This document shows positions 193 through 25,975 of a stretch of 64,000 bases of DNA, in pieces; positions within the stretch are counted from its first letter, which is position 1, and every line of letters starts with the position of its first letter. The notes beneath the pieces were generated by a model. It saw nothing but the letters and a program-made list of their open reading frames with translations, was not told where the DNA came from and ran no database searches. The stretch is from Candidatus Sulfopaludibacter sp. SbA3. Lineage in GTDB: Bacteria > Acidobacteriota > Terriglobia > 20CM-2-55-15. Made by a program: the position numbers and the translations under genes. The stretch spans positions 1 to 64,000 of the forward strand of contig CAMBFR010000008.1 of the NCBI GenBank assembly GCA_945865815.1, in the 5' to 3' direction.

Positions 193-555
193 ATGTTTGG
201 TCTAGACCGCAGACAGCAGTTCCTTTTGCTGATCTTTCTCGGTTTGATTTTCGCTGCCGCTCAGTATGGCCCTCCTTATTTCTATGCTTATCAGTTCAAC
301 GATTTCATCCGGCAGGAAGTGAAATTCGCGGTTTCCGCAAGAAAAACGACGAACGATGTCCGGGCGAATATCGCGAAGAAGGCCTTGGAGTTCAATATTC
401 CGATCACCGCACGCGATATAAAAATCACCCGCCGAGGTCCTGCATTCATCGTGGATATCGAGTACCGGTTTCCGATCAACCTCCGAGTGTATCAGCACGA
501 ATTGGTTTTCCATTCGAACGAGACCGGGGAAATTTTCGAAGATGCTTCCCGTTGA
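193..555 (+). CDS. small membrane-anchored hypothetical protein
   Basis: 120-aa ORF with N-terminal TM segment (FLLLIFLGLIFAAAQYG), just upstream of and overlapping moeA. Confidence 0.6.
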   Translation: MFGLDRRQQFLLLIFLGLIFAAAQYGPPYFYAYQFNDFIRQEVKFAVSARKTTNDVRANIAKKALEFNIPITARDIKITRRGPAFIVDIEYRFPINLRVYQHELVFHSNETGEIFEDASR

Positions 556-1756
556 ACGCGGGATCGAGATCGTCCTGTCCCTCGCAAAAGAGAAGAATCG
601 CGAGGATCGGATGGCTGCCGAATTTGTTCCCCTTCGCGATTCCATTTCCCGAATCCTGAGAGAGGACGTCTGCTGCGACGCGGATTCTCCGCCGTTCGAC
701 AAGTCCGTTCGCGACGGCTTCGCTGTTCGTTCCGAGGATGTGACCGCAATTCCCGCGACCCTGAAAGTCATTGGAGAGTCGCGCGCCGGCGCCGGCGCGT
801 CCGTGGAAGTGCGCCGGGGCGAGTGTTGCGAAATCATGACCGGCGCTCCGCTTCCAAAGGGCGCGGACGCGGTGGTCATGGTCGAACATACCGAAAGGCC
901 GGCGGCGGACTCGGTGCGCGTTCTCAAGACGGTACGCGAAAACGAAGGACTGCTTCGCAGGGCGGCGGAGGCGCGCGAGGGAGAACGTGTGCTCGAGGCG
1001 GGCCGCCGGATCGGCCTTGCCGATCTCGGGCTGCTGGCAACGGTGGGGAAGGCGGCCGTTAAGGTCTCTCAGAAACCGCAGGTCGCAATTATCGCGACCG
1101 GCGACGAACTGGTCGAGGTTCAGGAAAGGCCGCAACCCGCCCAAATCCGCAACAGCAACAGCTACACACTCTATGCGCAGGCCCTGGAGGCTGGTGCTTC
1201 TCCAATGCTCTATGGCATAGCGCGCGACAATCTGGACGATCTCCGGAACAAGATCCGAAAGGGATTGGAACACGACGTTCTCATCGTGTCCGGCGGCGTC
1301 TCCATGGGGAAGTACGATCTGGTCGAGAATGTGTTTGCCGAATGCGGTGTTCAGGTGCTCTTCGACAAGATTGCAATGAAGCCCGGGAAGCCAACCGTAT
1401 TTGGGTACCACGAAAGAGCATATGTCTTTGGGTTGCCAGGTAATCCGGTTTCGACGATTGTCTCGTTTCATATGTTCGTGCGCCCTCTCATCCGCAGTCT
1501 CCTGAAGGCCCGCGAGATTCAGCCGGAAATTCTCGACGCCCGTCTGGAAACACCGGCCAAATGCGATCCGGCGCGTGAATCGATTGTGCCGGCCCATGTA
1601 AGATTCGAGGGAGGCGGGTATTGGATATCCTCGGCGGTGTGGAAGGGTTCGTCGGATCTGGTCGGGCTTGCCCGGGCCAATGCGTTGATAATGATTCCGC
1701 GGCGCGAAGGAACACTGCAGGCTGGCGAGACCGCGCGATTCCTTGCTCTGGAATAA
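542..1756 (+). CDS. moeA: molybdopterin molybdenumtransferase MoeA
   Basis: IATGDELVE, SGGVSMGKYD, MKPGKPTVFG, GLPGNPVS motifs; followed by moaC and mogA. Confidence 0.93.
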   Translation: MLPVERGIEIVLSLAKEKNREDRMAAEFVPLRDSISRILREDVCCDADSPPFDKSVRDGFAVRSEDVTAIPATLKVIGESRAGAGASVEVRRGECCEIMTGAPLPKGADAVVMVEHTERPAADSVRVLKTVRENEGLLRRAAEAREGERVLEAGRRIGLADLGLLATVGKAAVKVSQKPQVAIIATGDELVEVQERPQPAQIRNSNSYTLYAQALEAGASPMLYGIARDNLDDLRNKIRKGLEHDVLIVSGGVSMGKYDLVENVFAECGVQVLFDKIAMKPGKPTVFGYHERAYVFGLPGNPVSTIVSFHMFVRPLIRSLLKAREIQPEILDARLETPAKCDPARESIVPAHVRFEGGGYWISSAVWKGSSDLVGLARANALIMIPRREGTLQAGETARFLALE

Positions 1757-1779
1757 TCTGAAATAAAACGGAGTGACTG

Positions 1780-2271
1780 GTGGCATCTGGAAAGCAGCAA
1801 CTGACTCACGTTGATCGGCGGGGCCGCGCGCGGATGGTGGACGTTACCGCAAAGGGCGAAACTACAAGAGCCGCGAGAGCCGAGGCTTTGGTCGAAATGT
1901 CGGCTGCCACCGTGAAACTTCTTCGCGAGCATCGAATCCCGAAGGGCGATCCCCTGGAGGTGGCGCGAATCGCGGGAATACAGGCGGCGAAAAAGACATC
2001 GGACCTGATTCCGCTGTGCCATCCGATCGCTCTGACGCACGTCGAGGTGGTTATTGAAGTCACTAAGACGGGTGCGAGAATCGAGGCAATTGCGAGAACG
2101 AAGGCGGAAACCGGCGTGGAGATGGAGGCCCTGGTGGCGGCTTCCGTCGCGGCGCTCACCGTCTACGACATGTGCAAGGCCGTCGAGAAAGGCATTTCGA
2201 TCGGACCGGTCCGGCTTCTTGAGAAACTTGGAGGCAAGAGTGGCCGGTGGACCCGGGGTGACCGCCAATGA
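1780..2271 (+). CDS. moaC: cyclic pyranopterin monophosphate synthase MoaC
   Basis: [49 protein letters not shown] motifs; GTG start. Confidence 0.93.
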
Positions 2272-2759
2272 GCTTGGGCCGCGCTCTCGTACTGACGATT
2301 AGCGATTCGGCCGCCGCCCGAAAGCGCGAAGACCTGTCTGGCCCGGAGGCTGGCCGCATTTTGACGGAAGCCGGTTTCGATGTCAGCGGTGTTGAGGTTT
2401 TGCCGGACGAGCGGTTCGATATAGAATCGCGGCTTCGCCGGGCCTGCGAGGAAGGTTTCGTCCTTGTGGTGACTACCGGAGGGACGGGTCTTTCGCCTCG
2501 CGACACGACACCGGAGGCGACGCTGGCGGTCATCGAGCGGGCAGTTCCGGGGATACCCGAACTGATGCGTCTGGAAAGTTTCAAGGTTACTTCCAGAGCG
2601 GCCCTGTCCCGGGCGGTTGCAGGAATTCGCCGGTCGACCTTAATAATCAACTTGCCTGGAAGCGTCAAGGGCGTGCGAGAATGTCTGGGCGCGGTGCAGC
2701 CGATCCTGCCGCATGCGGTTGCGACTTTGAACCGATCGTCGCTTGGTTGCGGCGAGTAA
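2268..2759 (+). CDS. mogA: molybdopterin adenylyltransferase MogA/MoaB family
   Basis: [17 protein letters not shown] motif, position in Moco cluster. Confidence 0.88.
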
Positions 2760-2775
2760 GGAAAGATAGGGGACC

Positions 2776-3144
2776 ATGGAGCAAAACGTCTTAGCCGGTT
2801 ACATACCGATTTTCCTCTTCATGGGGTTGACGCTTCTGTTTCCGATTGTGACGCTGCTGGCGGCCCGCCTGATTCGGCCGCAGACAGGGGGCGCGGGAAA
2901 ACTGGCGCCGTATGAGTGCGGTGTCGACCCGGACTCCGATGCGCGGCAGCGTTATGCGATTCGTTACTACGTCGTCGCGATTTTGTTCGTCATATTTGAC
3001 GTTGAGACCGTTTTCCTTTTTCCCTGGGCGATCAATTTCAACCGACTGGCGCTGTTTGGATTGATCGAGATGCTCGTATTCCTGGGAATTCTGATCGTTG
3101 GATACGTTTGGATTATCAAGAAGGGCGCTCTCGACTGGGCATAG
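2776..3144 (+). CDS. nuoA: NADH-quinone oxidoreductase subunit A (cluster 1)
   Basis: YECGVDP, FDVETVFLFPWA motifs. Confidence 0.93.
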   Translation: MEQNVLAGYIPIFLFMGLTLLFPIVTLLAARLIRPQTGGAGKLAPYECGVDPDSDARQRYAIRYYVVAILFVIFDVETVFLFPWAINFNRLALFGLIEMLVFLGILIVGYVWIIKKGALDWA

Positions 3145-3156
3145 GAGACTCAAAGA

Positions 3157-3729
3157 ATGCCGGCTTGGATTGAAGATCGGTTCGAAAAAAACATCGTTAC
3201 GACAACGGTCGATTTCGTCTTCAACTGGGCGCGCAAATCGGCGCTTTGGCCCATGACGTTTGGGCTCGCCTGCTGCGCCATTGAGATGATGGCGACCGGC
3301 GCCTCCAGATTCGACATGGATCGCTTCGGCGCCGGCATCTTCAGGCCCAGCCCCCGGCAGTCGGATCTTATTATTGTTGCCGGCACTGTCACGCTGAAGA
3401 TGGCTCCCATCGTCCGCCGTGTGTATGACCAGATGCCGGACCCGAAGTGGGTCATTTCGATGGGCGCCTGTTCCAACGTCGGCGGCCCGTTTGACACCTA
3501 CTCGGTCTTGCAGGGCGTGGACCACGTGATTCCGGTGGACGTCTATGTTCCGGGCTGCCCTCCGCGTCCCGAGGCACTGCTGTATGGTCTGATGCGCCTG
3601 CAGGACAAGATCGATCGAATGACGATCGCAAAGAAACCCACCGAAGTCCGACTCGACGACGTGAAAAACGATGAGCGAATTGCCCGCGCCGCGAAAGAAG
3701 AGATGGACCGCATCGGAATGAAGATTTAG
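3157..3729 (+). CDS. nuoB: NADH-quinone oxidoreductase subunit B
   Basis: [31 protein letters not shown] motifs. Confidence 0.96.
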
Positions 3730-3769
3730 GGCTGCCGGGACCTTCGCGCCCACAGGTGGACTGAAGGCG

Positions 3770-4759
3770 ATGTCTCTCATCGAACACCTTCGAAGCAAGA
3801 TTCAGCAATCGGGACCGATTCCGTTTTCTGAATACATGGAAGAGGTCCTGTACCACCCCCGCTTTGGTTACTACTCTTCCTTGAGATTGCCGATCGGCGC
3901 GGAGGGCGACTACTACACGTCCTCCGACCTGGATCCCATATTCGGGAAGCTTCTCGCCAAAAAATTCGAAAGCATGGCTGAAGGATCGGACTCGTTCACG
4001 CTCGTCGAGCTTGGGGCGGGGAAGGGATCACTTGCGCGCCATATCCTGGAGGAACGGCGGTTTCCCTACCTCATCCTCGAACGGAGCGCTGCGATGCGCG
4101 AACATCAGCGCGAGTTATTGAAAGACTTCGACGTTCGATGGATCGAGGATCTGCCTCGGAAGCTAACCGGGTGCATTTTTTCGAACGAGTTTTTCGACGC
4201 CCTTCCCGTTCATCGGATTCGCCGCCGGGATGGCGTGTTGAAGGAGTTGTACGTGAGCGGCGAATTCGAGGAGATTGAAGGTGACCTGCGGCAGCCCATC
4301 GAGTTGCCCCTCAAGGAAGGCCAGACGGCCGACGTCAACCTCGAAGCGCGAGCATGGATTCGCCGGATTGCGGCAAGTCTCGATCGGGGCTACCACCTTG
4401 CGATCGACTATGGGTACCTGCACGACGAGTTCTACGCCCAGCCGCACGGCACATTGATGTGTTACCGGCGCCACCAGGCCGAGGAAAACCCCTACGCTCA
4501 TATCGGCGAACAGGACATGACAGCGCACGTCAATTTTTCAGACCTTATGGATGAAGGCATTCGCGCAGAGCTCCCGACGGAAAATTTCCAGACGCAGATG
4601 AATTTCCTGATCGAACTGGGAATTCTCGACCGGATGCAGCAACTTGCAACTGCCGCCGACGCGGCATCACTCCAGCGCCTGTTGCGGATCAAGAAACTCA
4701 TTTTGCCCGGGAATATGGGCGAACGTTTCAAGGTTTTGGTGCAGAGAAAGGGCACGTAG
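3770..4759 (+). CDS. SAM-dependent methyltransferase, MidA/NDUFAF7 family (PF02636-type)
   Basis: GPIPFSEYMEEVLYHPRFGYYS, GDYYTSSDLDPIFG, VELGAGKGSLA, SNEFFDALPVHR, DMTAHVNF motifs typical of the family; lies between nuoB and nuoC. Confidence 0.88.
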   Translation: MSLIEHLRSKIQQSGPIPFSEYMEEVLYHPRFGYYSSLRLPIGAEGDYYTSSDLDPIFGKLLAKKFESMAEGSDSFTLVELGAGKGSLARHILEERRFPYLILERSAAMREHQRELLKDFDVRWIEDLPRKLTGCIFSNEFFDALPVHRIRRRDGVLKELYVSGEFEEIEGDLRQPIELPLKEGQTADVNLEARAWIRRIAASLDRGYHLAIDYGYLHDEFYAQPHGTLMCYRRHQAEENPYAHIGEQDMTAHVNFSDLMDEGIRAELPTENFQTQMNFLIELGILDRMQQLATAADAASLQRLLRIKKLILPGNMGERFKVLVQRKGT

Positions 4760-4922
4760 CTGCGGCTATTTTTCTGACCGTAATTACTAATGGTTGCGCT
4801 AAGATGCTACGTTGCGCAACGGGGGTGGGCCGGGCCGTTGACAGGTTCGGATCGATATGGTTCAATCCACCGTTTTGCATTCGCTCGTCATTAACTTTCA
4901 GCTTTCCCGGGACTTTATTTGA

Positions 4923-5675
4923 GTGGAAAACGAAAAAGAGAATCAGGGGACCGAAAAACCGGGCGATCCCGCTCAACCAGCCTCGTCGGCTCAACCAAGC
5001 CAGCCGGCGCAATCGGCAGACGAAGCGAAAGCCGCGGCGCCAAAACCTCCTCCTCCGCCTCCTCCTGCGAAGCCGGCAGCGCCTGCGGCTCCTCCGAAGC
5101 CGAAAGGCCCCGTCCAGGAGCCCTGGTCCCATCCATTAGTGGACGCGATCAAGGAGAAATTCGGTGGCGAGTTTGTAAAGGCGTACAGCTTTCTGGGGCA
5201 GAATCAGATTGAAGTGAAGAAGGACCGTATCGTCGAGATCGTGACCTTCCTTCGCGACAATCCGATTGTTCCGTTCGATTACATGGCGGACGAGACGGCC
5301 GTTCACTGGCCCAAGGAAGAGCAGTTCGAGATCGTTTATATCCTCTACTCCTTCGCGAAGAACGAGTACCTCCGCCTGAAAACGCGAATCAAGGAATGGG
5401 AGGACATCGAGAGTGTCTTTGCGGTGTGGCCAACGGCAGACTGGCTGGAGCGCGAGGTCTACGACATGTTTGGTGTCCAATACAGGAACCATCCGGATCT
5501 GCGGCGGATTCTGCTGCCTGAGGATTGGGTGGGTTTCCCGCTGCGCAAGGATTACAACATCCGGTTGCAGGATGTGGAGTGGGTCCGAAAGCATCTTGGC
5601 ATCGACTCGGGACAAAAGTACTACGTAAGCGAAGCCAGGCACGAGAGCCCGGATTACATAACCCCGACCGATTAG
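4923..5675 (+). CDS. nuoC: NADH-quinone oxidoreductase subunit C with Ala/Pro-rich N-terminal extension
   Basis: [42 protein letters not shown] start. Confidence 0.93.
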
Positions 5676-5681
5676 GGAATC

Positions 5682-6797
5682 ATGTCCACCAAAGAAACAT
5701 TATTTGATGCGAATGAAATAACCGTAAGCATGGGGCCGCAGCACCCTTCCACGCATGGGGTGCTTCAGGTGAAGCTGAAACTCGATGGCGAAAGAGTTAT
5801 CGACGCGAATTGCGTTATCGGCTACCTCCATCGCGGGGTCGAAAAGCTCGGCGAAGCCCAGACGTATGGCCAGTTCGTGCCTACTCTCGACCGCATGGAC
5901 TACATTGCTGCGGTTTCGAATTGTCTCGGCTATTGCGAGACCATCGAGAAACTGCTCGGCATCACGGCGCCCCCGCGGGCCCAGTACATTCGCGTCATCC
6001 TGACCGAGTTGAATCGTATTTCCAGCCACCTGCTTTGGCTCGGCACGCACGCGCTCGACATCGGCGCGATGACCGTCTTCCTTTACGCCTTCCGCGAGCG
6101 CGAAGAAATCCTGAAGATCTTCGAGAACTATTGCGGCGCCCGTTTGACGACGCATGTGTTTCGCATCGGCGGAACCCAGTACGAACTCTATGACGGGTTC
6201 GAGGCCCAGGTCCGCGCCTTTGTCAAAGACTTCCCCTCGAAGATCGCGGAATACGAAACGCTTCTGACCGAAAACCGGATCTGGATCAGCCGGACTCGGG
6301 GTGTCGGAGTGATCTCGGCAAAGGATGCGATTGCGATGGGAGTCACGGGACCTTGCCTGCGGGGTTCCGGCGTGGAGTGGGATCTTCGCAAGGCGAAGCC
6401 GTACGCGGCTTATGCGGACTTCCAGTTCGACATTCCTACCGGCGCGACGGGTGATACCTATGACCGTTATATGGTCCGCATGGAGGAGATGCGGCAGTCC
6501 TGCCGCATTGTCGGCCAGGCCGTTGAAAAGATTCCGGACGGACCTCTGATGGCCAAGCTCTCCAAGATCATTAAGCCGCCCGTGGGCGACATCTATCATT
6601 CGATCGAAGCTCCCAAGGGTGAACTCGGGTATTACATCGTCAGCGATGGAACGACGCAGGCCTATCGCGCGCGAGTGCGGCCGCCGTCTTTTGTCAATCT
6701 GCAGGCGCTGCGGCGCATGGTCACCGGGCTCATGGTGGCGGACGTGGTGGCGATCATCGGAACTTTGGATATCGTTTTGGGTGAGATAGACCGCTAA
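5682..6797 (+). CDS. nuoD: NADH-quinone oxidoreductase subunit D
   Basis: [24 protein letters not shown]-terminal DIVLGEIDR. Confidence 0.96.
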
Positions 6798-7831
6798 TGG
6801 AATTTGCGATCAATTACGTCATTCTTCCGCTCGTCAAAATAGGCATCATCCTGGCAGTGCTTCCCCTGCTGGTCGCCGCCATCACGCTTGCCGAGCGCAA
6901 GGTTATCGCGTTCATGCAGGTGCGGCTGGGGCCGATGCGGGTCGGTCCGTGGGGGTTGCTTCAACCCATCGCGGATCCCATCAAGCTGCTGCTGAAGGAA
7001 GACATCATTCCGGCGCGGGCGGACAAATGGGTTTTTGTGGCGGCGCCGATCATCACGCTGATTCCGGCGTTTATTGTTTTTGCCGTCATTCCGTTTGGTC
7101 CGACGATCAACGTTTTAGGTACGCCCGTCACCCTTTACGTCACGGACCTGAACATCGGCGTCCTTTACGTGCTTTCGATTTCGTCGATCGGCGTGCTGGG
7201 TATCATTCTGGCCGGCTGGGCGTCGAACAGCAAATACCCGCTGCTTGGGGCATTGCGGTCGGCCGCGCAGATGGTGAGTTACGAAGTGGCTCTGGGCTTC
7301 TCCATCATGGGCGTGCTCATGCTGTCGGAAACGCTCAGTCTGGTCGGCATAGTCGAAGCGCAGCGAAGTTCAGGCCTCTGGTACGTGTTTCTCCAGCCGG
7401 TCGCGTTCGTTCTTTTCTTTATCTGCGGTGTCGCGGAAACGAACCGGGCGCCTTTCGATTTGCCGGAAGCCGAGTCGGAACTGGTTGCCGGTTTCCACAC
7501 CGAGTACAGCGGTTTCAGGTTCTCCCTGTTCTTTCTGGCTGAATACGCCAACATGATTACCGTGTCGGCGATGGCCGTGACACTCTTTCTGGGCGGGTGG
7601 CTCAGACCTTTTCCGAATGTTGAGGCGCTGGCGTTTCTGGACCTCATTCCCGGAATTCTGTGGTTCGCGATCAAAGTGGTTGTATTCCTTTATTTCTATA
7701 TGTGGTTCCGAGCCAGTTGGCCGCGGTACCGGTATGATCAGCTCATGAAAGTCGGGTGGCAGTTCCTGTTGCCGCTCGCGATTGCGAACGTCATCGTGAC
7801 CGCAATCCTGGCCTTGATATTCAGGGGATAA
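6797..7831 (+). CDS. nuoH: NADH-quinone oxidoreductase subunit H (cluster 1)
   Basis: ERKVIAFMQVRLGPMRVGPWGLLQP, ETNRAPFDLPEAESELVAGFHTEYSG. Confidence 0.96.
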   Translation: MEFAINYVILPLVKIGIILAVLPLLVAAITLAERKVIAFMQVRLGPMRVGPWGLLQPIADPIKLLLKEDIIPARADKWVFVAAPIITLIPAFIVFAVIPFGPTINVLGTPVTLYVTDLNIGVLYVLSISSIGVLGIILAGWASNSKYPLLGALRSAAQMVSYEVALGFSIMGVLMLSETLSLVGIVEAQRSSGLWYVFLQPVAFVLFFICGVAETNRAPFDLPEAESELVAGFHTEYSGFRFSLFFLAEYANMITVSAMAVTLFLGGWLRPFPNVEALAFLDLIPGILWFAIKVVVFLYFYMWFRASWPRYRYDQLMKVGWQFLLPLAIANVIVTAILALIFRG

Positions 7832-7833
7832 CA

Positions 7834-8304
7834 ATGAAGGTCCAACGTCCGGAACTGTCTCTGTTGAAAAAGATTTTTCTTGTCGACCTGTTCAAGGGGC
7901 TGGCGCTGACGTTCTCGTACCAGCGCCCCTCGGCGAACTACACAGAGCAGTATCCGAAGGCGCGGCCCAAGGTCGCCGAACGGTTCCGGGGCGCGCCGCG
8001 GCTGAACAACGATCCCGATAACGGCGAGACTCTCTGCATAGCATGCAATCTGTGCGCGCTTGCGTGCCCGGAGCATTGCATCGAGGTGGGTTGGGAGCGA
8101 ACCGAGGCCGGCAAGAAAGCGCTCACTACATACACCTTCGATATGTCGCGCTGCATGTTCTGCGGATTGTGCGAAGACGCCTGTCCCACGCCGTGCCTGG
8201 AACTCACGCAGGATTTCGAGCTCAGCCTGTACGAACGGCGTGACATGAAATGGGACCGGCAAAAATTGGAAGAGGGCAACCAGCCGGTTGTTTATACGAG
8301 GTAG
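7834..8304 (+). CDS. nuoI: NADH-quinone oxidoreductase subunit I (2x[4Fe-4S] ferredoxin)
   Basis: CIACNLCALACP and CMFCGLCEDACP motifs; start at ATG 7834 directly after nuoH. Confidence 0.94.
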   Translation: MKVQRPELSLLKKIFLVDLFKGLALTFSYQRPSANYTEQYPKARPKVAERFRGAPRLNNDPDNGETLCIACNLCALACPEHCIEVGWERTEAGKKALTTYTFDMSRCMFCGLCEDACPTPCLELTQDFELSLYERRDMKWDRQKLEEGNQPVVYTR

Positions 8305-8305
8305 A

Positions 8306-8827
8306 ATGCTGGAACTCGCTCTCTTTTACATTTTCGGAACGATCGCTGTTGTATCCGCGATTCTCGTCATCACGCAGCATAACGTCGTTCATAGCGCAAT
8401 TTTCCTTGCGGGCACGCTGCTGTCGGTAGCCGGTATTTTTCTCGCGCTCAACGCCGAATTTCTCGCCGGTGTCCAGGTCATTGTGTATGTCGGCGGAATC
8501 CTCGTCCTGTTTGTATTCGTGATCATGCTTATCGCGGTGGAACGTTCGACGTTCGAACGCCAGTTCAATCGGCAGTGGAAGATAGCCCTGATAACTTCCG
8601 CAATCCTGATCGGTGAGCTGGTTTATGTGGTGTATCAGGGGCGGGATACGTTTGTCCTGGCCGAGCCGGCCGTGCCGCTGGTTCAGGGCGCCGCTGGAAA
8701 TTCACAGCAGGTGGGTATGGGTTTGTATACGACATACCTTCTGCCGTTTGAGATTGCGTCGATTCTGTTGCTGGTTGCCATTGTCGGCGCCGTCGTGCTG
8801 GCAAAGAAGAAAACGCAGACCGAGTAG
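8306..8827 (+). CDS. nuoJ: NADH-quinone oxidoreductase subunit J (cluster 1)
   Basis: [24 protein letters not shown]; operon position. Confidence 0.92.
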
Positions 8828-8841
8828 AGGAGACAGCCGGA

Positions 8842-9144
8842 GTGGTTGCAACACATCATTATCTATTTCTCGCCGCGGCTCTTTTTACGATCGGCGTGAT
8901 CGGCGTCTTGACGCGCCGCAACATCATGATCGTCCTCATGTCGATTGAGTTGATGATGAATGCGGTCAACATCAACCTGATTGCATTCTCAAATCACCTG
9001 CAGCAGGTTAACGGGCAGATTTTCGCCATCTTTGTCATAACTGTCGCCGCGGCGGAAGCCGCGGTGGGTCTCGGGATCGTGATCGCGATGTTCAAGAACA
9101 AGGAAACGATGAACATCAACGAGATCGACCTCATGAAGTGGTAG
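8842..9144 (+). CDS. nuoK: NADH-quinone oxidoreductase subunit K (cluster 1)
   Basis: [36 protein letters not shown] start. Confidence 0.94.
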
Positions 9145-9148
9145 ACGA

Positions 9149-11206
9149 ATGAATTTTCTGGATCTCATCTGGCTGATACCGCTGTTTCCTGTCGTTGGCT
9201 TCCTGGTCAATGGCCTCATCGGAAAGCGCCTTCCGAAGTCTGTCGTTGGCATCATTGGCGCCGGCGCAGTTCTTGTATCTTTCATCTTTTCGGCCGGCGC
9301 GGTATTGCAGCTGGCCCAGCTTCCGGCCGAGGAGCGGTCACACACCGTCAGGTTGTACCAGTGGTTCGATGCAGGCGCGGCCCAAACGCTTGGCGGGCAA
9401 ATGGCTCGTTTCCAGGTCGACTTTGGATTCCTGCTGGACCCCTTGTCGTCCGTGATGATCCTCGTCGTCACCGGTATCGGATTCCTGATCCATGTGTATT
9501 CCACCGGCTACATGCATGAAGAAGACGGTTTCTACCGGTTCTTTGCGTACCTGAACCTCTTCATGTTTTCGATGCTCACGCTCGTTCTGGGAAGCAACTA
9601 TCTGATGATGTTCATCGGATGGGAAGGTGTCGGCCTGTGCTCCTATCTGCTCATCGGATACTACTTCCACAAGAAGAGCGCGGGCGACGCGGCAAAGAAG
9701 GCTTTCGTTGTCAATCGCGTGGGCGACTGGGGTCTCTCGATCGGCATCATGCTGATTTTTGTCTCGTTCGGCACGATCGAATTTACGGCTGTCGGAGAAG
9801 CCGTCCGCGAAGGACTGGCTGCCGGCAGCTTTAGCGTCAGCGATCCGCTGTTCATCGGAATAGCCCTGGCTCTGTTTGTCGGCGCCACAGGCAAGTCGGC
9901 TCAGCTTCCTCTGTATGTCTGGTTGCCGGACGCCATGGAAGGGCCGACGCCGGTCAGTGCGCTTATCCACGCCGCGACGATGGTTACGGCCGGCGTTTAT
10001 ATGGTCGCGCGGAGCAACTTCATTTTCCAGATGGCGCCCGAGGCGATGGCCGTGGTCGCGGTGATTGGCGCCCTGACTGCGCTCTTTGCGGCTTCGATCG
10101 GTCTTGTCCAGAACGACATCAAGCGCGTGCTGGCCTATTCGACCGTCAGCCAGCTCGGATACATGTTCCTGGCCCTTGGCGTTGGCGCGTTTGCAGCCGG
10201 CGTCTTCCATCTCATGACGCACGCATTTTTCAAGGCGCTGTTGTTTCTTGGATCGGGAAGTGTGATCCATGCGATGCATCACGAGCAGGACATGCGCAAG
10301 ATGGGCGCGCTGAAGAACAAGATTCCGATAACGTTCAAGACGATGGCAATCGGAACGCTGGCCATCGCAGGAATTCCGGGGCTTGCGGGTTTCTTCTCGA
10401 AGGACGAGATTCTCTGGAAAGCGTTTTCAAACCCGCAGGGGCACGTGATCCTGTGGCTGCTCGGTGTGGTGGTCGCCGGAATGACGGCCTTCTACATGTT
10501 CCGGCTGTTGTTCATGACGTTTTATGGCGAGTCGCGTGTGGATCATCACGTGGAGCACCACATTCATGAATCCCCAAAGTCCATGACGATTCCGCTGATG
10601 GTTCTGGCAGCGGGCTCGGTCGTTTCCGGCTACCTGGGCATTCCGCTGTGGCTGGGAGGCACGAACGCTTTCGAACACTGGCTGGAGCCCGTATTCGAGC
10701 CGTTGCCTATAACGCAGGCTGCAATCGTCGAGCATAGCCATGCTTTCGAGGCGGGAATGGCTGCATTGTCCGTGATGGTGGCGCTGGCCGGAATCTATCT
10801 GGCCTACCGAAAGTACTACAAGACAAGTTACCGTGCGGAAACGGAAGTTGCTTCGTATGGCGCGGCGTACCCGGTGTTGCAGAACAAGTACTACGTGGAT
10901 GAGCTTTACGATGGGCTTTTCGTCAACCGGGTTAAGGACGCGGGCGTCGGGCTCTGGAAATTCGACGCGAAACTGGTCGATGGCGCCGTCAACGGCTCTG
11001 CGTCGCTTACGGTAACCGGCGCGAACGGATCGAACTGGTGGGACCGCTGGATCGTCGATGGGATTGTCCGGTTTATCGGCGGCTTCATCAAGACCGCGAG
11101 CTGGCCCATCCGCTTGATTGAGACCGGATACACGCAGAACTACGCGCTTGTGATGGTTCTTGGCGTCTTGATTATCATTGGCTACGCCCTGTGGGGCGGC
11201 CAGTAA
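9149..11206 (+). CDS. nuoL: NADH-quinone oxidoreductase subunit L (cluster 1)
   Basis: [60 protein letters not shown]. Confidence 0.96.
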   Translation: MNFLDLIWLIPLFPVVGFLVNGLIGKRLPKSVVGIIGAGAVLVSFIFSAGAVLQLAQLPAEERSHTVRLYQWFDAGAAQTLGGQMARFQVDFGFLLDPLSSVMILVVTGIGFLIHVYSTGYMHEEDGFYRFFAYLNLFMFSMLTLVLGSNYLMMFIGWEGVGLCSYLLIGYYFHKKSAGDAAKKAFVVNRVGDWGLSIGIMLIFVSFGTIEFTAVGEAVREGLAAGSFSVSDPLFIGIALALFVGATGKSAQLPLYVWLPDAMEGPTPVSALIHAATMVTAGVYMVARSNFIFQMAPEAMAVVAVIGALTALFAASIGLVQNDIKRVLAYSTVSQLGYMFLALGVGAFAAGVFHLMTHAFFKALLFLGSGSVIHAMHHEQDMRKMGALKNKIPITFKTMAIGTLAIAGIPGLAGFFSKDEILWKAFSNPQGHVILWLLGVVVAGMTAFYMFRLLFMTFYGESRVDHHVEHHIHESPKSMTIPLMVLAAGSVVSGYLGIPLWLGGTNAFEHWLEPVFEPLPITQAAIVEHSHAFEAGMAALSVMVALAGIYLAYRKYYKTSYRAETEVASYGAAYPVLQNKYYVDELYDGLFVNRVKDAGVGLWKFDAKLVDGAVNGSASLTVTGANGSNWWDRWIVDGIVRFIGGFIKTASWPIRLIETGYTQNYALVMVLGVLIIIGYALWGGQ

Positions 11207-11227
11207 TTCGCAATTTGGAGTTTCTTA

Positions 11228-12829
11228 ATGGACTTCTTTCGTCAGCACATCCTGACCATCGTGGCATTCTGGCCGGTCGCAGGGGTGATCGTTCTCGTCT
11301 TTCTCAATAAAGAGAACAAGACCCTGATTCGCTGGTGGGCCAATTTTGTCGCCTTTGCGGGTTTTGTGATCTCCCTTCCGATATGGTTCTGGTTCGATTT
11401 TGAGAATTCCGACCAGATGCAGTTCATCCAGAAGGTGCCATGGATCCAGAACCTCGGTGTGGAGTACCACGTGGGCATCGACGGCATTTCGCTTCTGCTT
11501 GTCATGCTGACGACCTTGCTCGGGCCGCTTGCTCTTCTCTCCTCGTGGGATGCAATCGACAATCGGCTCAAAGAGTATTACGCGTTTCTGCTCATGTTGC
11601 AGACCGGCATGATCGGCGTGTTCATCTCGCTCGATTTCTTCCTCTTCTATGTTTTCTGGGAAGTCATGCTCGTGCCGATGTACTTCCTGATCGGCGTATG
11701 GGGCGGGTCACGGAAACTGTATGCCGCCATCAAGTTCTTCCTGTACACGCTATTCGGCTCGGTGCTGCTGCTTCTGGGAATTCTGGCACTGTACTTCGCC
11801 TACCCGGGCATGGCTGCCCAGCAGCCGTCGCTCGCGGCCGAATTCGGCACTGCACATACGTTCAACGTGCTGGCATTCCAGGCCATGGGTTCGTTCCTGC
11901 CGGCGGGTCTGCAATGGTGGATCTTCCTGGCGTTCTTCGTGGGTTTCGCGATCAAGGTTCCGATGTTCCCGTTCCATACGTGGTTGCCCGATGCTCACGT
12001 CGAGGCCCCGACCGCGGGCTCGGTGATTCTGGCCGGCGTTCTTCTGAAGATGGGGACATACGGATTCCTGCGGTTCAGCCTCCCGATGCTGCCGGAAGGC
12101 ACGAAGGCGTTTATCCCGCTCATGATTACGCTGTCGATTGTCGGTATCGTCTATGGCGCGCTGGTGGCGATGATGCAGCCGGATATGAAGAAGCTTGTGG
12201 CCTATTCCTCGGTGAGTCATATGGGATTCGTCACATTGGGAATGTTCGCCCTCAATCCGAACGGCTTGAACGGCAGCATCATTCAGCAGATCAACCACGG
12301 AATTTCCACGGGCGCGCTGTTCTTGATCGTCGGCATGATTTACGAGCGCCGGCACACGCGCGAAATTTCCCAGTTCGGTGGAATTTCACACGTCATGCCG
12401 GTGTTTGCAGTGGTTTTCCTGATCATGACGATGTCGTCGATCGGTCTGCCGCTGTTGAACGGGTTCATCGGTGAGTTCACGATTCTCATGGGCGCGCTTC
12501 AGGCGAACCTGTGGTACGCCATCGCTGCCGGTTCGGGCATCGTGCTTGGTGCGGCCTACATGCTTTGGCTTTATCAGCGGACGATGTTTGGCACGCTGGA
12601 CAACCCGGCCAATCAGAAGCTCCTCGACATGAATTTCCGCGAAATCGTGACGGTCGCGCCGCTCATCATCATGGCGTTCTGGATCGGTCTTTATCCGGCG
12701 CCGTTTTTCAAGGCTGTAGAGAAGCCGGTGAACAAGATCGTCCTGAAGGTGCGTCCCGACTTCTTCCAGGGAGCGCCGCAGCTTAATGCCGGACAGCCGG
12801 CCGTCCCTGCGCAAGGAGACGCCCGATAA
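11228..12829 (+). CDS. nuoM: NADH-quinone oxidoreductase subunit M (cluster 1)
   Basis: FWEVMLVPMYFLIGVWGG, FPFHTWLPDAHVEAPTAGSVILAGVLLKMG. Confidence 0.96.
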   Translation: MDFFRQHILTIVAFWPVAGVIVLVFLNKENKTLIRWWANFVAFAGFVISLPIWFWFDFENSDQMQFIQKVPWIQNLGVEYHVGIDGISLLLVMLTTLLGPLALLSSWDAIDNRLKEYYAFLLMLQTGMIGVFISLDFFLFYVFWEVMLVPMYFLIGVWGGSRKLYAAIKFFLYTLFGSVLLLLGILALYFAYPGMAAQQPSLAAEFGTAHTFNVLAFQAMGSFLPAGLQWWIFLAFFVGFAIKVPMFPFHTWLPDAHVEAPTAGSVILAGVLLKMGTYGFLRFSLPMLPEGTKAFIPLMITLSIVGIVYGALVAMMQPDMKKLVAYSSVSHMGFVTLGMFALNPNGLNGSIIQQINHGISTGALFLIVGMIYERRHTREISQFGGISHVMPVFAVVFLIMTMSSIGLPLLNGFIGEFTILMGALQANLWYAIAAGSGIVLGAAYMLWLYQRTMFGTLDNPANQKLLDMNFREIVTVAPLIIMAFWIGLYPAPFFKAVEKPVNKIVLKVRPDFFQGAPQLNAGQPAVPAQGDAR

Positions 12830-14277
12830 TGGATCAGTTCTTTCAGATTCAGGACATCGGCGCGATTGCGCCGGAGCTCGAGATGGCCATCTTTGGAATG
12901 ATCCTGCTGGTCGCTGATCTGCTGATTGAGCAAAAAAGAAAGCTTGGCTGGATCGCGCTCGTCGGGATCGGGTGTTCGGCATCGTTTCTGGTGCTGCAGC
13001 GCCTTCGCGACGTGGACGTTTCCGCCTACGGCGGCATGCTCGTTGTCGACCCGTTTTCCGCATTCTTCAAGTTCATTTTCCTGCTGGGCGCCGCGCTGTC
13101 GATCGCCATTTCCCTGAAATACCTCGATATCGAGCGCGAGAACCACGGTGAGTACTACGCTCTCATATTGTTTGCCACGATGGGCATGATGTTCATGGCC
13201 AGCGCAGTCGACCTGGTGACGCTCTACATCGGCCTTGAAACGATGGCGATTGCGACATACGTGCTGGTCGGCTTTTTGCGGAACAATCAGCGTTCGAACG
13301 AAGCGTCAATAAAATATTTCCTGCTCGGGGCGTTCTCGTCGGGAATCCTGCTGTACGGCATGTCGCTGCTGTACGGGATATCGGGATCGACGAAGTTTGT
13401 CGAAATTGCCGAAGCGCTTTCCCGCCGCCCATTGACAGATCCGATCTCGCTTATGGCGATGATCACCCTCCTTGCCGGCATGTTCTTCAAGATTGCCGCC
13501 GTTCCGTTCCACCAGTGGACACCCGATGCATATGAAGGTGCGCCAACGTCGATCACGGCATATATGTCCGTAGCCGTAAAGGCGGCATCGTTTGCCATGA
13601 TGGTGCGCGTTTTCATGGTCGCGATTTATCCACTTCGTCCCGAATGGGTTCCGATCATGTCCGTCGTCTGCGTTCTGACGATGACGCTGGGAAATATCGC
13701 GGCAATTACTCAGTCCAATATCAAGCGTCTGCTCGCCTATTCGTCGATCTCGCACGCGGGCTACATTCTTCTTGGCCTGATAGCGGGCAACGAAACAGGG
13801 CTTGTTGCCATACCGATGTATCTTCTGATCTACACCTTTACGAATATCGGCGTCTGGGCCGTGGTGGTGGCGCTGCGCCGGAAGGACGTGATCGGCGAAC
13901 ACGTCGACGACATGAGCGGCCTGTTCTTCAAGCATCCGGTTTCGGCAATTTTGATGCTGATCTTCTTGCTTTCCCTGGCCGGCATCCCGCCCACCGCGGG
14001 CTTCATAGCGAAATACTTTCTCTTTGCGGCCGCCATTGAAACAGGTCACAACGTGCTTGCGGTGATCGCCGTGCTGAATGCCGCGATCTCGATCTATTTT
14101 TACTTCCGCATCGTTGTTGCGATGTTCATGCGCGAGGCAACAGAGAAGACGGGGCTGGTCTATTCACCAGGAGTCTTGACTGCCCTGGGCGTGGCTATTC
14201 TGTTCACAATCTTCATTGGAATTTATCCCGACCCGCTTATCACGATGGCTCGGCAAGCTGTCGTCATGGCTTTTTAG
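12829..14277 (+). CDS. nuoN: NADH-quinone oxidoreductase subunit N (cluster 1)
   Basis: YIGLETMAIATYVLVGF, KYFLLGAFSSGILLYG, PFHQWTPDAYEGAPTSITAYM. Confidence 0.95.
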   Translation: MDQFFQIQDIGAIAPELEMAIFGMILLVADLLIEQKRKLGWIALVGIGCSASFLVLQRLRDVDVSAYGGMLVVDPFSAFFKFIFLLGAALSIAISLKYLDIERENHGEYYALILFATMGMMFMASAVDLVTLYIGLETMAIATYVLVGFLRNNQRSNEASIKYFLLGAFSSGILLYGMSLLYGISGSTKFVEIAEALSRRPLTDPISLMAMITLLAGMFFKIAAVPFHQWTPDAYEGAPTSITAYMSVAVKAASFAMMVRVFMVAIYPLRPEWVPIMSVVCVLTMTLGNIAAITQSNIKRLLAYSSISHAGYILLGLIAGNETGLVAIPMYLLIYTFTNIGVWAVVVALRRKDVIGEHVDDMSGLFFKHPVSAILMLIFLLSLAGIPPTAGFIAKYFLFAAAIETGHNVLAVIAVLNAAISIYFYFRIVVAMFMREATEKTGLVYSPGVLTALGVAILFTIFIGIYPDPLITMARQAVVMAF

Positions 14278-18738: not shown

Positions 18739-20187
18739 TTACCTCAGGGCGTTAACCGCCGCCGAAACTGTCCAATCGAGGAATCGTGTGGGGAGGATGC
18801 CGAGATACAGCGTGCCGGCGATCGTGATCGCCAGGGCCAGTTTCAGTGGCCCGGTGGTGCGGACGTCGGCAAATTCTTCATTGGGATCGCGCATATACAT
18901 CTGCACGATTACATACAGGTAGTAATAGAAGGAAACCACCGTCGTGATCACGCCGATAACAGCCAGCCAGATCAGCCCGGATTGAACAGCCGCCTTAAAG
19001 ATGAAAAATTTACCGGCAAATCCTGCCGTGCCGGGCACCCCTGCGAGCGAAAGCATAAAGAGAGATAGAACGGCGGCCAGTCCCGGCCGTTTCGAGGCGA
19101 GGCCGGCGTAGTCGTTCAGATTGACCAGTTTGTCTTCGGAGCGGCTCAACATGGTGACGACCGCGAACGCGCCAAGATTCGTCACGCTGTACGCCAGGGT
19201 ATAGAAAAGAACTGCCGAGACGCCATGCTCCGATCCCGCCGCCACTGCCACGGCGATGTATCCGGCATGAGCTATTGAAGAGTAGGCCAGCATCCGCTTG
19301 ATGTTCGGCTGGACCAGCGCGATGACATTGCCGATCAGCATCGTGAGCGCCGCCACAATCCAGAACACCGATGTCCATCGATCTTCCAGCGTCGGAAACG
19401 CGGTCATGAAGATGCGCAACAGCACCGCAAAGCCTGCGGCCTTGGGTCCCACGGACATGAAACCGGTAACCGGAGTCGGCGCGCCCTCGTACACGTCGGG
19501 CGCCCACACGTGAAATGGCGCCACCGCCACTTTGAAGCAAAGCCCGATAAGCATCAGCGCGGCGGCCAGGGAAACAAGGCTCGTCTGAGGATCGCCGGAC
19601 CTCAATGAGTCCGCTATTACGATTAGATTCGTGCTCCCCGTCGCGCCAAATATCAACGCCACGCCATACAGGAAGAAAGCCGACGAAAATGAGCCCAGCA
19701 GGAAGTATTTCATCGCGGATTCGTTGGACTTCAGGTCCGTGCGGCGGAATCCGGCCAATACATACGTCGCAATGGAAAGAATCTCGAGGCCGAGGAACAC
19801 CATGATCAGTTCATTCGAACCCGCCATCATCATCATGCCGACTGTCGCGAAAAGAAGCAGCGCGTAGTACTCGGTGTGATGGATACCCTCGCGCTGAAGA
19901 AAGTTCATCGAGGTCAGAATGGTTATGGCGGCGATCAGAATAAAAAGAAAGTGGAAGAAAATACTGTAGCTGTCGACGATCCACAGGTTGGTATACCACT
20001 GGCCGGCCTGGCGACTCATCGGCGCCAGGGCCAGCATTGCGGCGATCGTCCCGGCGATCGCAAGCCATCCGAGCCAGGACTTCTTCGCGTCCGAAACGAA
20101 CGGTTCCGCCACCATGATCGCGATGCCAAAAAGCGACAGCATGATTGCCGGGAGTATTGCGCCGAGGTTGACTACCGGAATATTCAT
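18739..20187 (-). CDS. nuoN: NADH-quinone oxidoreductase subunit N (cluster 2)
   Basis: FLGLEILSIATYVLAGF, KYFLLGSFSSAFFLYG, PFHVWAPDVYEGAPTPVTGFM. Confidence 0.95.
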   Translation of the reverse strand: MNIPVVNLGAILPAIMLSLFGIAIMVAEPFVSDAKKSWLGWLAIAGTIAAMLALAPMSRQAGQWYTNLWIVDSYSIFFHFLFILIAAITILTSMNFLQREGIHHTEYYALLLFATVGMMMMAGSNELIMVFLGLEILSIATYVLAGFRRTDLKSNESAMKYFLLGSFSSAFFLYGVALIFGATGSTNLIVIADSLRSGDPQTSLVSLAAALMLIGLCFKVAVAPFHVWAPDVYEGAPTPVTGFMSVGPKAAGFAVLLRIFMTAFPTLEDRWTSVFWIVAALTMLIGNVIALVQPNIKRMLAYSSIAHAGYIAVAVAAGSEHGVSAVLFYTLAYSVTNLGAFAVVTMLSRSEDKLVNLNDYAGLASKRPGLAAVLSLFMLSLAGVPGTAGFAGKFFIFKAAVQSGLIWLAVIGVITTVVSFYYYLYVIVQMYMRDPNEEFADVRTTGPLKLALAITIAGTLYLGILPTRFLDWTVSAAVNALR

Positions 20188-21722
20188 CTACTGTTCTGAT
20201 CCGCAACCTGCACGTCGCGCGATTGCACCTGATTGATAAGTTTCGCCACGGACGCGTCCATGGGACGCAGGAAATGATTCGAATACATCCCCATCCAAAC
20301 GATGAGGGCGAGCAAGGGAACCAGCATCGCGTACTCGCGGCGGTTCATATCGCGCAACGTCTGGTTCGGTTCATGCGTTACTTCGCCCCAGAAGGTCCGT
20401 TGGTACATCCATAACATGTAGACCGCGGACAGGATCACGCCGAGGGCGGCAAACACCGCAAAGCTGCGGCTCACGCCAAATGTTCCCAGCAGGATCAGAA
20501 ACTCGCCGACGAACCCATTCAGGCCGGGCAGCCCGATCGACGAAAGGGTGACGATGAGGAAGAACGCGGCATAGACCGGCATTTTGTGCGCAAGGCCGCC
20601 AAAATCGTCGATCAGGCGCGTGTGGCGCCGTTCGTAGATCATGCCCACCAGCAGGAACAGGGCGCCCGTGGACACGCCATGACTGAGCATCTGATAGATG
20701 GCGCCTTCCATTCCCTGGGTCGTGAAGCTGAAAATACCCAGAACGATGAAGCCGAGATGGCTCACCGAGGAATACGCGACCAGCTTCTTCAAGTCCGGCT
20801 GCACCATCGCCACCAGGGCGCCGTAGATGATGCCCGCAACCGCCAGAAAGGAAATCATGGGTGCGAATAACTGGCTCTGATGCGGAAACAAGGGCAGGCT
20901 GAACCGAACGAGGCCGTAGGTCCCCATTTTCAGCAGAACGCCCGCCAGCAGAACGGATCCTGCCGTCGGCGCTTCGACGTGGGCATCGGGAAGCCAGGTG
21001 TGAAACGGGAACAACGGCACCTTGATCGCAAAGGCCAGGAAGAACGCTAGGAAGAGCGCTCTTTCCATTCCAGGCGCAATGACGAGGCTGTTCGACGCCA
21101 GGGCCGCCATGATCTGGGGATAACTGAACGTGAATGTTCCCGTGGCGCTGCCGTGCAGGAAATACAGGGCGATGATCGCCACCAGCATCAGCACCGACCC
21201 GATCATCGTGTACAAGACGAATTTCATCGCGGCGTAGATCCGCCGTTCTCCGCCCCAAACGCCGATCAGGAAATACATCGGCACCAGCATCACTTCCCAG
21301 AAAACGTAAAACAGGAACAGATCGAGCGACACAAACACGCCGATCATGCCGGTTTCCAGGAGCAACATGAAAATGAAGTATTCCTTTGCCCGGCTTGCGA
21401 TCGACCAGGATGCCAGCATTGCCAGCGGTGTCAGGACGGTGGCCAGCAGAACGAGGTAGAGGCTGATTCCGTCGACTCCCAGTTCGTAGTTGACGCCCAG
21501 CGAAGGAATCCATGGCACGTTAACGGCGAACTGGAATTCCGCAACGCTCGAATCGAAATAAGTGACCAGGTGCAGCGAGAAGACGAAGGTCAGGAGCGTA
21601 ATGATGAAGGCAAACGACCGGATCGACCGGACGTGCGCACGGTTGAAGAACAGGATCAGCACCGCGCCGGCGGCCGGCGTGAAGGCAATGATGGTCAGAA
21701 TGTTCGCTGTAATGACGTCCAT
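20184..21722 (-). CDS. nuoM: NADH-quinone oxidoreductase subunit M (cluster 2)
   Basis: FWEVMLVPMYFLIGVWGGERR, FPFHTWLPDAHVEAPTAGSVLLAGVLLKMG. Confidence 0.95.
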   Translation of the reverse strand: MDVITANILTIIAFTPAAGAVLILFFNRAHVRSIRSFAFIITLLTFVFSLHLVTYFDSSVAEFQFAVNVPWIPSLGVNYELGVDGISLYLVLLATVLTPLAMLASWSIASRAKEYFIFMLLLETGMIGVFVSLDLFLFYVFWEVMLVPMYFLIGVWGGERRIYAAMKFVLYTMIGSVLMLVAIIALYFLHGSATGTFTFSYPQIMAALASNSLVIAPGMERALFLAFFLAFAIKVPLFPFHTWLPDAHVEAPTAGSVLLAGVLLKMGTYGLVRFSLPLFPHQSQLFAPMISFLAVAGIIYGALVAMVQPDLKKLVAYSSVSHLGFIVLGIFSFTTQGMEGAIYQMLSHGVSTGALFLLVGMIYERRHTRLIDDFGGLAHKMPVYAAFFLIVTLSSIGLPGLNGFVGEFLILLGTFGVSRSFAVFAALGVILSAVYMLWMYQRTFWGEVTHEPNQTLRDMNRREYAMLVPLLALIVWMGMYSNHFLRPMDASVAKLINQVQSRDVQVADQNSR

Positions 21723-21738
21723 CTATCTTTCACTTGTT

Positions 21739-21765
21739 GGCACGGGGCTGAAGCCCCGCGCCCGC
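21739..21765. repeat. REP-like hairpin (copy b) between nuoM2 and nuoL2
   Basis: GGCACGGGGCTGAAGCCCCGCGCCCGC. Confidence 0.8.
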
Positions 21766-21778
21766 AGGCGTACCGCAC

Positions 21779-23689
21779 TCATCTCAAAAACCACACAACA
21801 AAGAGCACGCCGCCAAAAAGAATCCATCCGGCATACGTGCGAACGTACCCGGTTTGCATATGTCTGAATCCGCTCCCAGCCGCCCGCACAACCTGACCGG
21901 TTGCATTCACGGTGCCGTCAATGATGCCCTCGTCGACGAACTTCCACAGAAATTCGCGCGACCACCGCAGAATGGGCTTGACCACCGCGACGTTGTAAAC
22001 CTCGTCGACGTAGTACTTGTTCACCAGAATCGCGTACATCGCATGAGCGCTCGAAGCGAGTCTGGCCGGCAAATCCGGACGCGCGACGTAAAACAGGTAC
22101 GCTGTGCCCATTCCTCCAAAAGCCACGGCCACCGATACCAGCATCAAGATCAGTTCTGCTGATGACTCTGCGGCTTCCTCGCCTCCCAGAAACACTTCGA
22201 TGTTGTTGTGCCCGCCCAGGGCGGCCGGGATGCCCACGTATCCGGCAATGATCGAGAAAATGGCCAGGATCGCCAACGGGACCAGCATCGAAGCCGGCGA
22301 CTCATGCACGTGGTGGACGTCGTGTTCGGTGTACTGCGGTTTTCCAAAGAAAGTGAGAATCACGAGGCGGAACGTGTAAAAGGATGTGAATCCGGCCGTG
22401 ATGATCCCCGCCGTCCAGAGCAGCTTTCCGTAGTTCTCGCTGTTCCAGGCCGCCCACAGGATCGCATCCTTGCTGAAGAATCCGGCAAGCCCGGGAATTC
22501 CCGAAATGGCCAGCGCGCCTATAAGGAACGTCCGGAACGTCCACGGCATATGGTGGCGCAGGCCGCCCATTTTTCGAATGTCCTGCAGGCCGCCCATGCC
22601 GTGAATCACGCTGCCCGCGCCGAGGAAGAGCAACGCCTTGAAGAAGGCGTGGGTCATCAGATGGAAAACGCCGGCCGCGTATGCGCCCACGCCGCACGCC
22701 ATGAACATGTAACCCAGTTGGCTGACTGTGGAATATGCGAGAACCCGCTTGATGTCGGTTTGCACCAGTCCGATCGACGCGGCAAAAAGCGCGGTAAAGG
22801 TTCCTATAACGGCAACGACAAGCAACGCGCCCGGAGCATGGTCGAAAAGAGCAGCGGAGCGCGCCACCATGTAAACGCCGGCCGTCACCATGGTTGCCGC
22901 GTGAATCAGCGCGCTCACCGGCGTTGGGCCTTCCATCGCGTCGGGTAGCCAGACGTAAAGCGGAATCTGGGCGGACTTGCCGGCCGCTCCGATAAACAGC
23001 AGCAGGCATATCGTTGTCACAACGCCGACCGTCCCGAGCGTTTCGACAGGGAAGAGCGTCGCATCTTCAATCCGCGAAAAGACCGCCTGGAAATTCACAC
23101 TGTCAAAGGTCCAGAAGATAAGTATCGTGGCGATAATGAATCCAAAATCGCCGATGCGATTTACGATGAACGCCTTCTTGCCTGCGTCCGCAGCCGACTT
23201 CTTGAAGAACCAGAATCCGATCAGGAGATAAGAGCAGAGCCCGACGCCCTCCCAGCCGACGAACATCAGCAGGTAGTTGTTAGCCAGCACCAGCGTGAGC
23301 ATCGAAAACATGAACAGGTTCAGGTAGGCGAAGTACCGGTAAAAACCGGGTTCGTGGGTCATGTAGCCGGCTGAATAAATGTGAATCAGGAGGCCCACGC
23401 CGGTAACGATCAGGATCATCAGTCCGGAGAGGTGGTCCAGCAGAAAGCCGAATTCTGCCTGAAACCTTCCGGCCTGTATCCAGGTGAAGTAGTTCTGTAC
23501 GACCGGGAGTTCCGCTTCCGGCAACTGCAGCATCTGCACGAATGCGGCCAGCGAAATGAGAAATGATCCGGCCACGGATCCCGCGGCTATTCCGGCCACG
23601 GCCTGTTTAGGCAGGCGTTTCCCGAAGACGCCATTGATGACGGCGCCCAGCAGAGGGAGAATCGGAATAAGCCAGAGGAGTCTCACCAT
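21779..23689 (-). CDS. nuoL: NADH-quinone oxidoreductase subunit L (cluster 2)
   Basis: [44 protein letters not shown]. Confidence 0.96.
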
Positions 23690-23985
23690 TTCAACAAATT
23701 ACTGCGATCGACGTTCAAGGTTTCACGATTCCGGTACATGGCGATAACCAGCGCCAGTCCGACCGCGGCTTCGGCCGCCGCGACCACCAGGACAAAAAAC
23801 ACGAAGACCTGTCCGCTGATCTGGCCTCGCTGGCTGGAAAACGCAACGAACGTCAGGTTGACCGCGTTCAACATGATCTCCACAGAGAGCAGCAGCGCAA
23901 TGATGTTGCGCTTGATAAAGAAGCCCAGGACTCCGATCACGAACAACACGGCGGCGAGAATGAGATACCAGTTGAGCGGGATCAT
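23683..23985 (-). CDS. nuoK: NADH-quinone oxidoreductase subunit K (cluster 2)
   Basis: [27 protein letters not shown]...[16 protein letters not shown]...[18 protein letters not shown]; 100 aa inside the longer ORF. Confidence 0.94.
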
Positions 23986-24473
23986 AGGTCCTTCTTCGCG
24001 AACACAACCGCGCCCATTAAAGCAATCAGTATCAAAAGCGATGTGGCTTCGAACGGCAGCAGGTAGTCGGTAAACAGGCTGCGGCCGATCAACTCGGGGG
24101 TTCCTGCCATCTGCGCTTCCACGATGTCTTGCCGCTCGACGTTCCACAGCGTTATGACGGTCAGGAACAGAAAGAACAGGCCCAAGGGAATGCCCAGGAA
24201 CTTCAGCCAGCGAAGCCTGTCGGCGCCGTCTTCGTCCTCGGGCAGATTGAGCAGCATGATGACAAATACGAACAGCACCATGATGGCGCCCGCATAGACA
24301 ATTACCTGGATGACGGCCAGGAAATCCGCGCGTAACAGGATGAACAGCCCCGACATGGACGACAGCAGTACGATCAGTGAAAGGGCGCTGTAGAGGACGT
24401 GCTTCTGGACCAGCACATTGATCGCTGCGCCCACTGCCAATGCCGCAAAGAAGAAAAACAGAATCTCGATCAT
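23982..24473 (-). CDS. nuoJ: NADH-quinone oxidoreductase subunit J (cluster 2)
   Basis: [21 protein letters not shown]...[26 protein letters not shown]; 163 aa inside the longer ORF. Confidence 0.93.
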
Positions 24474-25956: not shown

Positions 25957-25975
25957 GAATTTGGAGCTTCGGAAC

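Follow-up and report, generated by a model that had tools for sequence, protein, structure and literature searches.

A MidA/NDUFAF7-type methyltransferase gene inside an acidobacterial nuo operon, and its association with complex I carrying arginine in NuoD

Human mitochondria cannot do without the methyltransferase NDUFAF7. MidA is its Dictyostelium counterpart, and Shahul Hameed et al. (2018, Cell Rep 24:1996) reportedly argued that it arose in bacteria. In mitochondria NDUFAF7 methylates Arg85 of the complex I subunit NDUFS2 (PMC3829151). The occurrence of the modification in bacteria is already published: mass spectrometry in 2013 found Arg65 of Nqo4 from Paracoccus denitrificans to be symmetrically dimethylated, whereas Escherichia coli has the same arginine in unmethylated form (PMC3750175). 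In Yarrowia lipolytica, loss of the equivalent arginine abolishes the iron-sulfur cluster N2 (PMC8042128). Hameedi et al. further described a residue switch at this site: Thermus thermophilus has threonine at the NuoD position and arginine in NuoB, Yarrowia has the reverse arrangement, and the two arginine side chains occupy the same space (PMC8042128).

The window analysed here, a stretch of 64,000 nucleotides from the soil acidobacterium Candidatus Sulfopaludibacter sp. SbA3, carries a forward-strand nuo operon (2776-14277) in which, as an earlier note on this DNA had claimed, a PF02636-like gene lies between nuoB and nuoC on the same strand. Its open reading frame begins with ATG, is bounded exactly by positions 3770 and 4759, encodes 329 amino acids and matches PF02636 with an E-value of 1.3e-48 and a score of 166 bits, above the curated threshold of 23.3; profile searches of the 4.34-Mb assembly recovered it as the single PF02636 gene. 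Upstream of it are nuoA (2776-3144; PF00507) and nuoB (3157-3729; PF01058/TIGR01957). Downstream, likewise on the forward strand, follow nuoC (4923-5675; PF00329), nuoD (5682-6797; TIGR01962 and PDB alignments), nuoH (6797-7831; PF00146), nuoI (7756-8304, the extent of a reading frame matching Fer4 families, whose true start is probably 3' of the nuoH stop), nuoJ (8288-8827) and nuoK (8842-9144), both by profile match, and nuoL, nuoM and nuoN (9149-14277), by sequence and gene order. The methyltransferase gene is separated from nuoB by 40 nt and from the annotated start of nuoC by about 163 nt; within the latter gap (4760-4922) a TTGACA hexamer near 4839 may be an internal promoter. The operon contains no nuoE, nuoF or nuoG and resembles 11-subunit complexes, and a nuoF of the same genome is found on another contig (G000:C7:12617-13843). 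Immediately 5' of nuoA lie molybdenum cofactor genes (542-2759, forward strand): moeA together with moaC and moaB/mog, the last two identified by sequence.

The earlier note had taken the product to be of the MidA type, an identification upheld by a profile match to Dictyostelium MidA (5ztz) at an E-value of 7.5e-55 and by structural comparison; the protein did not group with an unrelated methyltransferase family. Among solved structures, sequence similarity connects it only to 4f3n/4g67, 1zkd and 5ztz. An AlphaFold2 model (pLDDT 93.7), built with 25 aligned relatives, was compared with known structures by Foldseek, and the top ranks were taken by 4g67 (TM 0.92), 4f3n, 1zkd (0.82) and MidA 5ztz/5zu0 (0.84-0.85, with 0.85 for 5ztz), all at E-values of 1e-23 or lower. 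The next-ranked fold, that of other methyltransferases, lags by about 15 orders of magnitude, at 1e-8 with a TM of about 0.4, and the MidA fold covers the full length of the predicted structure. The nearest solved folds (TM 0.82-0.92), those of Rhodopseudomonas 1zkd and Burkholderia 4f3n/4g67 (COG1565), come from other bacterial lineages, and their database entries name them putative proteins or likely methyltransferases and state no complex I role. Examination of the alignment reveals that the motifs E80-x-G-x-G-x-G86, NE140FFDALPVH148, D213YG and G246xxD249xT251 are kept in 24 aligned relatives, with E80, G82, G84, G86, E140, D143 and A144 invariant in the 25 sequences; the AdoMet motif ExGxGxG and the NE-FFDALP motif are also seen in the alignment with 5ztz. 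The protein shares with Dictyostelium MidA and human NDUFAF7 the Pfam family, the fold, both of these motifs and a partner subunit with the equivalent target arginine, but it is only 22% identical, has no mitochondrial targeting and is encoded in the operon of its proposed substrate. Furthermore, a 163-row methyltransferase tree groups MidA as a pair with 1zkd, an alphaproteobacterial protein (100*), whereas the window protein forms a deep branch, unsure in place and with no supported neighbours, in a tree whose deep branches are poorly supported. Membership of PF02636/COG1565 is thus secure, whereas fine orthology to NDUFAF7 is not.

The target arginine was found in the very NuoD segment in which the earlier note expected it. 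Arg51 (GYLHR51GVEK; codon CGC at 5832-5834 of the forward strand, within the pattern match 5820-5845, GGCTACCTCCATCGCGGGGTCGAAAA) aligns with the NDUFS2 Arg85 position in both TIGR01962 and PDB alignments. In the latter it corresponds to the arginine that E. coli NuoCD, cyanobacterial NdhH and Aquifex have in an HRGxE motif, and in the PDB sequences of T. thermophilus and M. smegmatis NuoD the equivalent site holds threonine. The window NuoB has Thr77 (VAG-T77-VTLKM), the marker of complexes with arginine in NuoD. We consider it likely that the window gene encodes a MidA/NDUFAF7-type NuoD-Arg51 methyltransferase acting as a complex I assembly step. What the analysis shows directly is the family, the fold, the operon position, the target arginine, the recurring linkage and the co-occurrence with Arg-in-NuoD complexes, while catalysis, substrate, symmetric dimethylation and timing in assembly are inferred. 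The enzyme would use S-adenosylmethionine to methylate Arg51, by precedent as a symmetric dimethylation, before or during the docking of NuoD on NuoB; the modified residue would lie between the two subunits beside cluster N2 and help to lock them together. The gene would be cotranscribed with that of its substrate, as befits a dedicated complex I assembly factor. P. denitrificans offers the closest bacterial parallel, with the same arginine and the modification that the window gene would make, but it is an alphaproteobacterium in which the modification was measured, whereas in the window the enzyme and its target site were read.

The neighbourhood of PF02636 and nuo genes, which the earlier note proposed to follow across genomes, is not unique to this one. 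Inspection of 71 PF02636 loci in Acidobacteriota showed nuoB adjoining the methyltransferase gene (MT) in 24 of them, spread over 12 family codes, where a generous chance rate of 2% leads one to expect about 1.4; the orders include nuoA-nuoB-MT, nuoI-nuoB-MT, nuoB-MT alone and MT-nuoA-B-C-D. A scan of all GTDB genomes provided 80 named loci, and nuo or ndh genes lie within 10 kb in 21 of these. Linked forms are mostly MT-nuoABCD in Nitrospirota (Nitrospira among them), with one further Nitrospirota locus; ndhH-MT, ndhCKJ-MT and MT-ndhCKJ in cyanobacteria; nuoC-D-I-MT in the Aquificota (Persephonella); a divergent arrangement in Handelsmanbacteria; and both MT-nuoABCD and divergent arrangements in several Chloroflexota. 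Thus, counting Acidobacteriota, linkage is seen in six phyla, and it changes at least 21 times on the 163-row tree, at least 10 of these changes being forced by starred branches. Among the surveyed loci, only the window showed the complete operon with the methyltransferase placed precisely between nuoB and nuoC. Because the linkage recurs across six phyla in differing gene orders, a chance neighbourhood can be rejected. No mention of COG1565 or DUF185 inside nuo operons turned up in the literature searched; as far as this search extends, the placement of the gene in or beside nuo/ndh operons of six phyla is new.

About two thirds of the Acidobacteriota copies, for example all of those in families f2, f21 and f31, lie away from nuo genes. 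This majority, together with a preliminary observation from 2025 that Wolbachia MidA methylates DNA (PMC12455994), could be read as pointing to a general protein or DNA methyltransferase not specifically connected with complex I, its operon position being incidental. We regard this as highly improbable, given that the linkage recurs in six phyla with varied gene orders, that none of the 13 NuoD-less Acidobacteriota genomes has the gene and that almost none of the genomes with threonine-type NuoD alone has it.

To place the association on a wider footing, the type of NuoD was compared with the presence of the methyltransferase in about 370 genomes, comprising 197 Acidobacteriota, 121 Chloroflexota and 50 named carriers from about 15 phyla. 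NuoD was typed by a DNA pattern, with variant motifs re-read for carriers only; some non-carriers typed as Thr-only by the pattern may conceal Arg copies, as G294 does, and errors of MAG binning are possible in the genome counts. Among the Acidobacteriota, genomes with Arg-type NuoD comprise 93 with and 36 without the methyltransferase, and those in which it is absent comprise 1 and 67, respectively (Fisher p 1e-24, a value that ignores the relatedness of genomes). Stratification over four mixed families gives a p of about 1e-8, with related genomes still inside the families. Arg-type NuoD is hence present in 93 of 94 carriers, and the exception (G005) is an assembly in 350 pieces in which only a Thr-type complex I NuoD is visible. 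In the subset of single-NuoD Acidobacteriota genomes, which is free of the bias from carrier-only re-reading, four with arginine have the gene and one does not, as against none of 25 with threonine or serine (p 1.8e-4). The same pattern holds within families: in f2 exactly 4 of 21 genomes have the methyltransferase, and these are the four with a second, Arg-type complex, while in f21 exactly 3 of 14 have it, tracking Arg-type NuoD. In Chloroflexota the gene is present in 53 and absent from 21 genomes with Arg-type NuoD, and absent from all 41 typed as Thr-only; all 53 carriers have arginine, eight of them through HRS or HRN variant motifs. All 49 typable genomes of the 50 named carriers have arginine as well. 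Re-reading assigned arginine to G119 and G135 through an HRC motif that the pattern had overlooked, and serine (AGC) to G021, which the pattern had scored as arginine. The methyltransferase occurs almost only with complex I of the Arg-in-NuoD type, a rule that is also new with respect to the literature searched. Arginine in NuoD is needed for its presence but not sufficient, since E. coli-like lineages have the arginine without the enzyme; a profile search of the E. coli control genome found no PF02636 gene. Such cases, which in our survey include the 36 Acidobacteriota and 21 Chloroflexota genomes above, count against the proposed mechanism. Nevertheless, the functional link to complex I, which the earlier note had drawn from a single operon, is strongly supported by linkage and co-occurrence and extends far beyond this genome.

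The residue in NuoD is matched by one in NuoB. In about 62 distinct pairs, without exception, complex I combines NuoD arginine with NuoB threonine, or NuoD threonine or serine with NuoB arginine; by locus there are 44 Arg/Thr, 24 Thr/Arg and 1 Ser/Arg combinations (NuoD/NuoB). These are the same two positions as in the switch between T. thermophilus and Y. lipolytica (PMC8042128), which concerned one organism pair, whereas here the switch is followed over about 62 pairs and tied to the presence or absence of MidA. Orphan nuoB genes adjoining the methyltransferase are of the Thr type in 23 of 23 cases, and are therefore members of Arg-in-NuoD complexes although nuoD lies elsewhere. One genome, G117, has a Thr-type operon with its own Arg-type nuoB and an Arg-type operon without nuoB, and on a third contig a Thr-type nuoB together with nuoA and the methyltransferase. 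Further Acidobacteriota Arg-type nuo operons without nuoB were noticed (L195-L203, L017, L019 and L205), and some of these genomes carry a Thr-type nuoB together with the methyltransferase at another site. In the NuoD tree the Thr type forms one clade, which rules out many independent Arg/Thr switches and also means that residue and complex lineage are not fully separable. G021 (L178), with a Ser-type NuoD (GFLHSGFEK), an Arg-type NuoB and no methyltransferase, is an apparent separate case of a switch.

With effectively one main switch plus this one serine case, the arginine could be a mere marker of a complex I lineage whose assembly factor modifies another residue or subunit, such as NuoB; indeed, the commonest neighbour of the methyltransferase is nuoB and not nuoD. 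We find this unlikely, as methylation at NDUFS2 Arg85 has direct precedent in human and at the corresponding site in Paracoccus (PMC3829151, PMC3750175), the switch affects precisely this site and takes the NuoB partner residue with it, and the cyanobacterial gene follows ndhH, the nuoD homologue. Methylation of the NuoD arginine remains our preferred reading, and the distribution points to the Arg-in-NuoD design as the condition under which methylation of the NDUFS2 Arg85 site is needed.

Because the gene, across the genomes surveyed, hardly ever occurs without a complex I containing the arginine methylated by the human enzyme, the methyltransferase step in complex I assembly probably has an old bacterial origin and was passed on to mitochondria. 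The earlier note's proposal of a pre-mitochondrial origin thus keeps its direction, the cross-phylum survey supporting an old bacterial link, but the idea is not new, one operon cannot date it, and lateral transfer may have intervened. Joint spread of the methyltransferase and Arg-type complex I by such transfer, in which case the distribution would say little on age relative to mitochondria, is a reading to which we give appreciable weight, though we think it on balance the less probable history; it does not compete with the methylation mechanism. The patchy presence inside f2 and f21 and the lack of resolution among deep branches of the methyltransferase tree are in keeping with it, but the two-complex genomes of these families usually have the gene and the Arg-type nuoD operon on different contigs. 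With confidence slightly above even, we propose that there are two designs of the N2/quinone site: one with arginine in NuoD, which in many lineages needs MidA methylation to assemble, and a methylation-free one with arginine in NuoB. MidA would be an ancient checkpoint of the first, present in at least 12 bacterial phyla, predating both Proteobacteria and mitochondria, and kept in two-complex genomes for one complex only.

The survey supplies natural controls in the form of Arg-type complexes with MidA, Arg-type without it (E. coli), Thr-type without it, and both complexes in one cell. The modification is predicted for cyanobacterial NdhH and for NuoD of Nitrospira, Chloroflexota and Acidobacteriota, and no report of methylated NdhH or NuoD in these groups was found in the literature searched. 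In four cyanobacterial loci (L118, L145, L157 and L099) the methyltransferase is about 0.1-0.4 kb downstream of ndhH, a proximity that predicts methylated NdhH in photosynthetic NDH-1. The window itself contains a second complex I cluster on the reverse strand (18739-26335) with nuoA, nuoE, nuoH, nuoJ, nuoK, nuoL, nuoM and nuoN. The B, C and D parts of this complex are probably supplied by a 790-aa BCD fusion encoded on contig C47, which has the NuoD motif GFLHRCFEK and LGT in its NuoB part.
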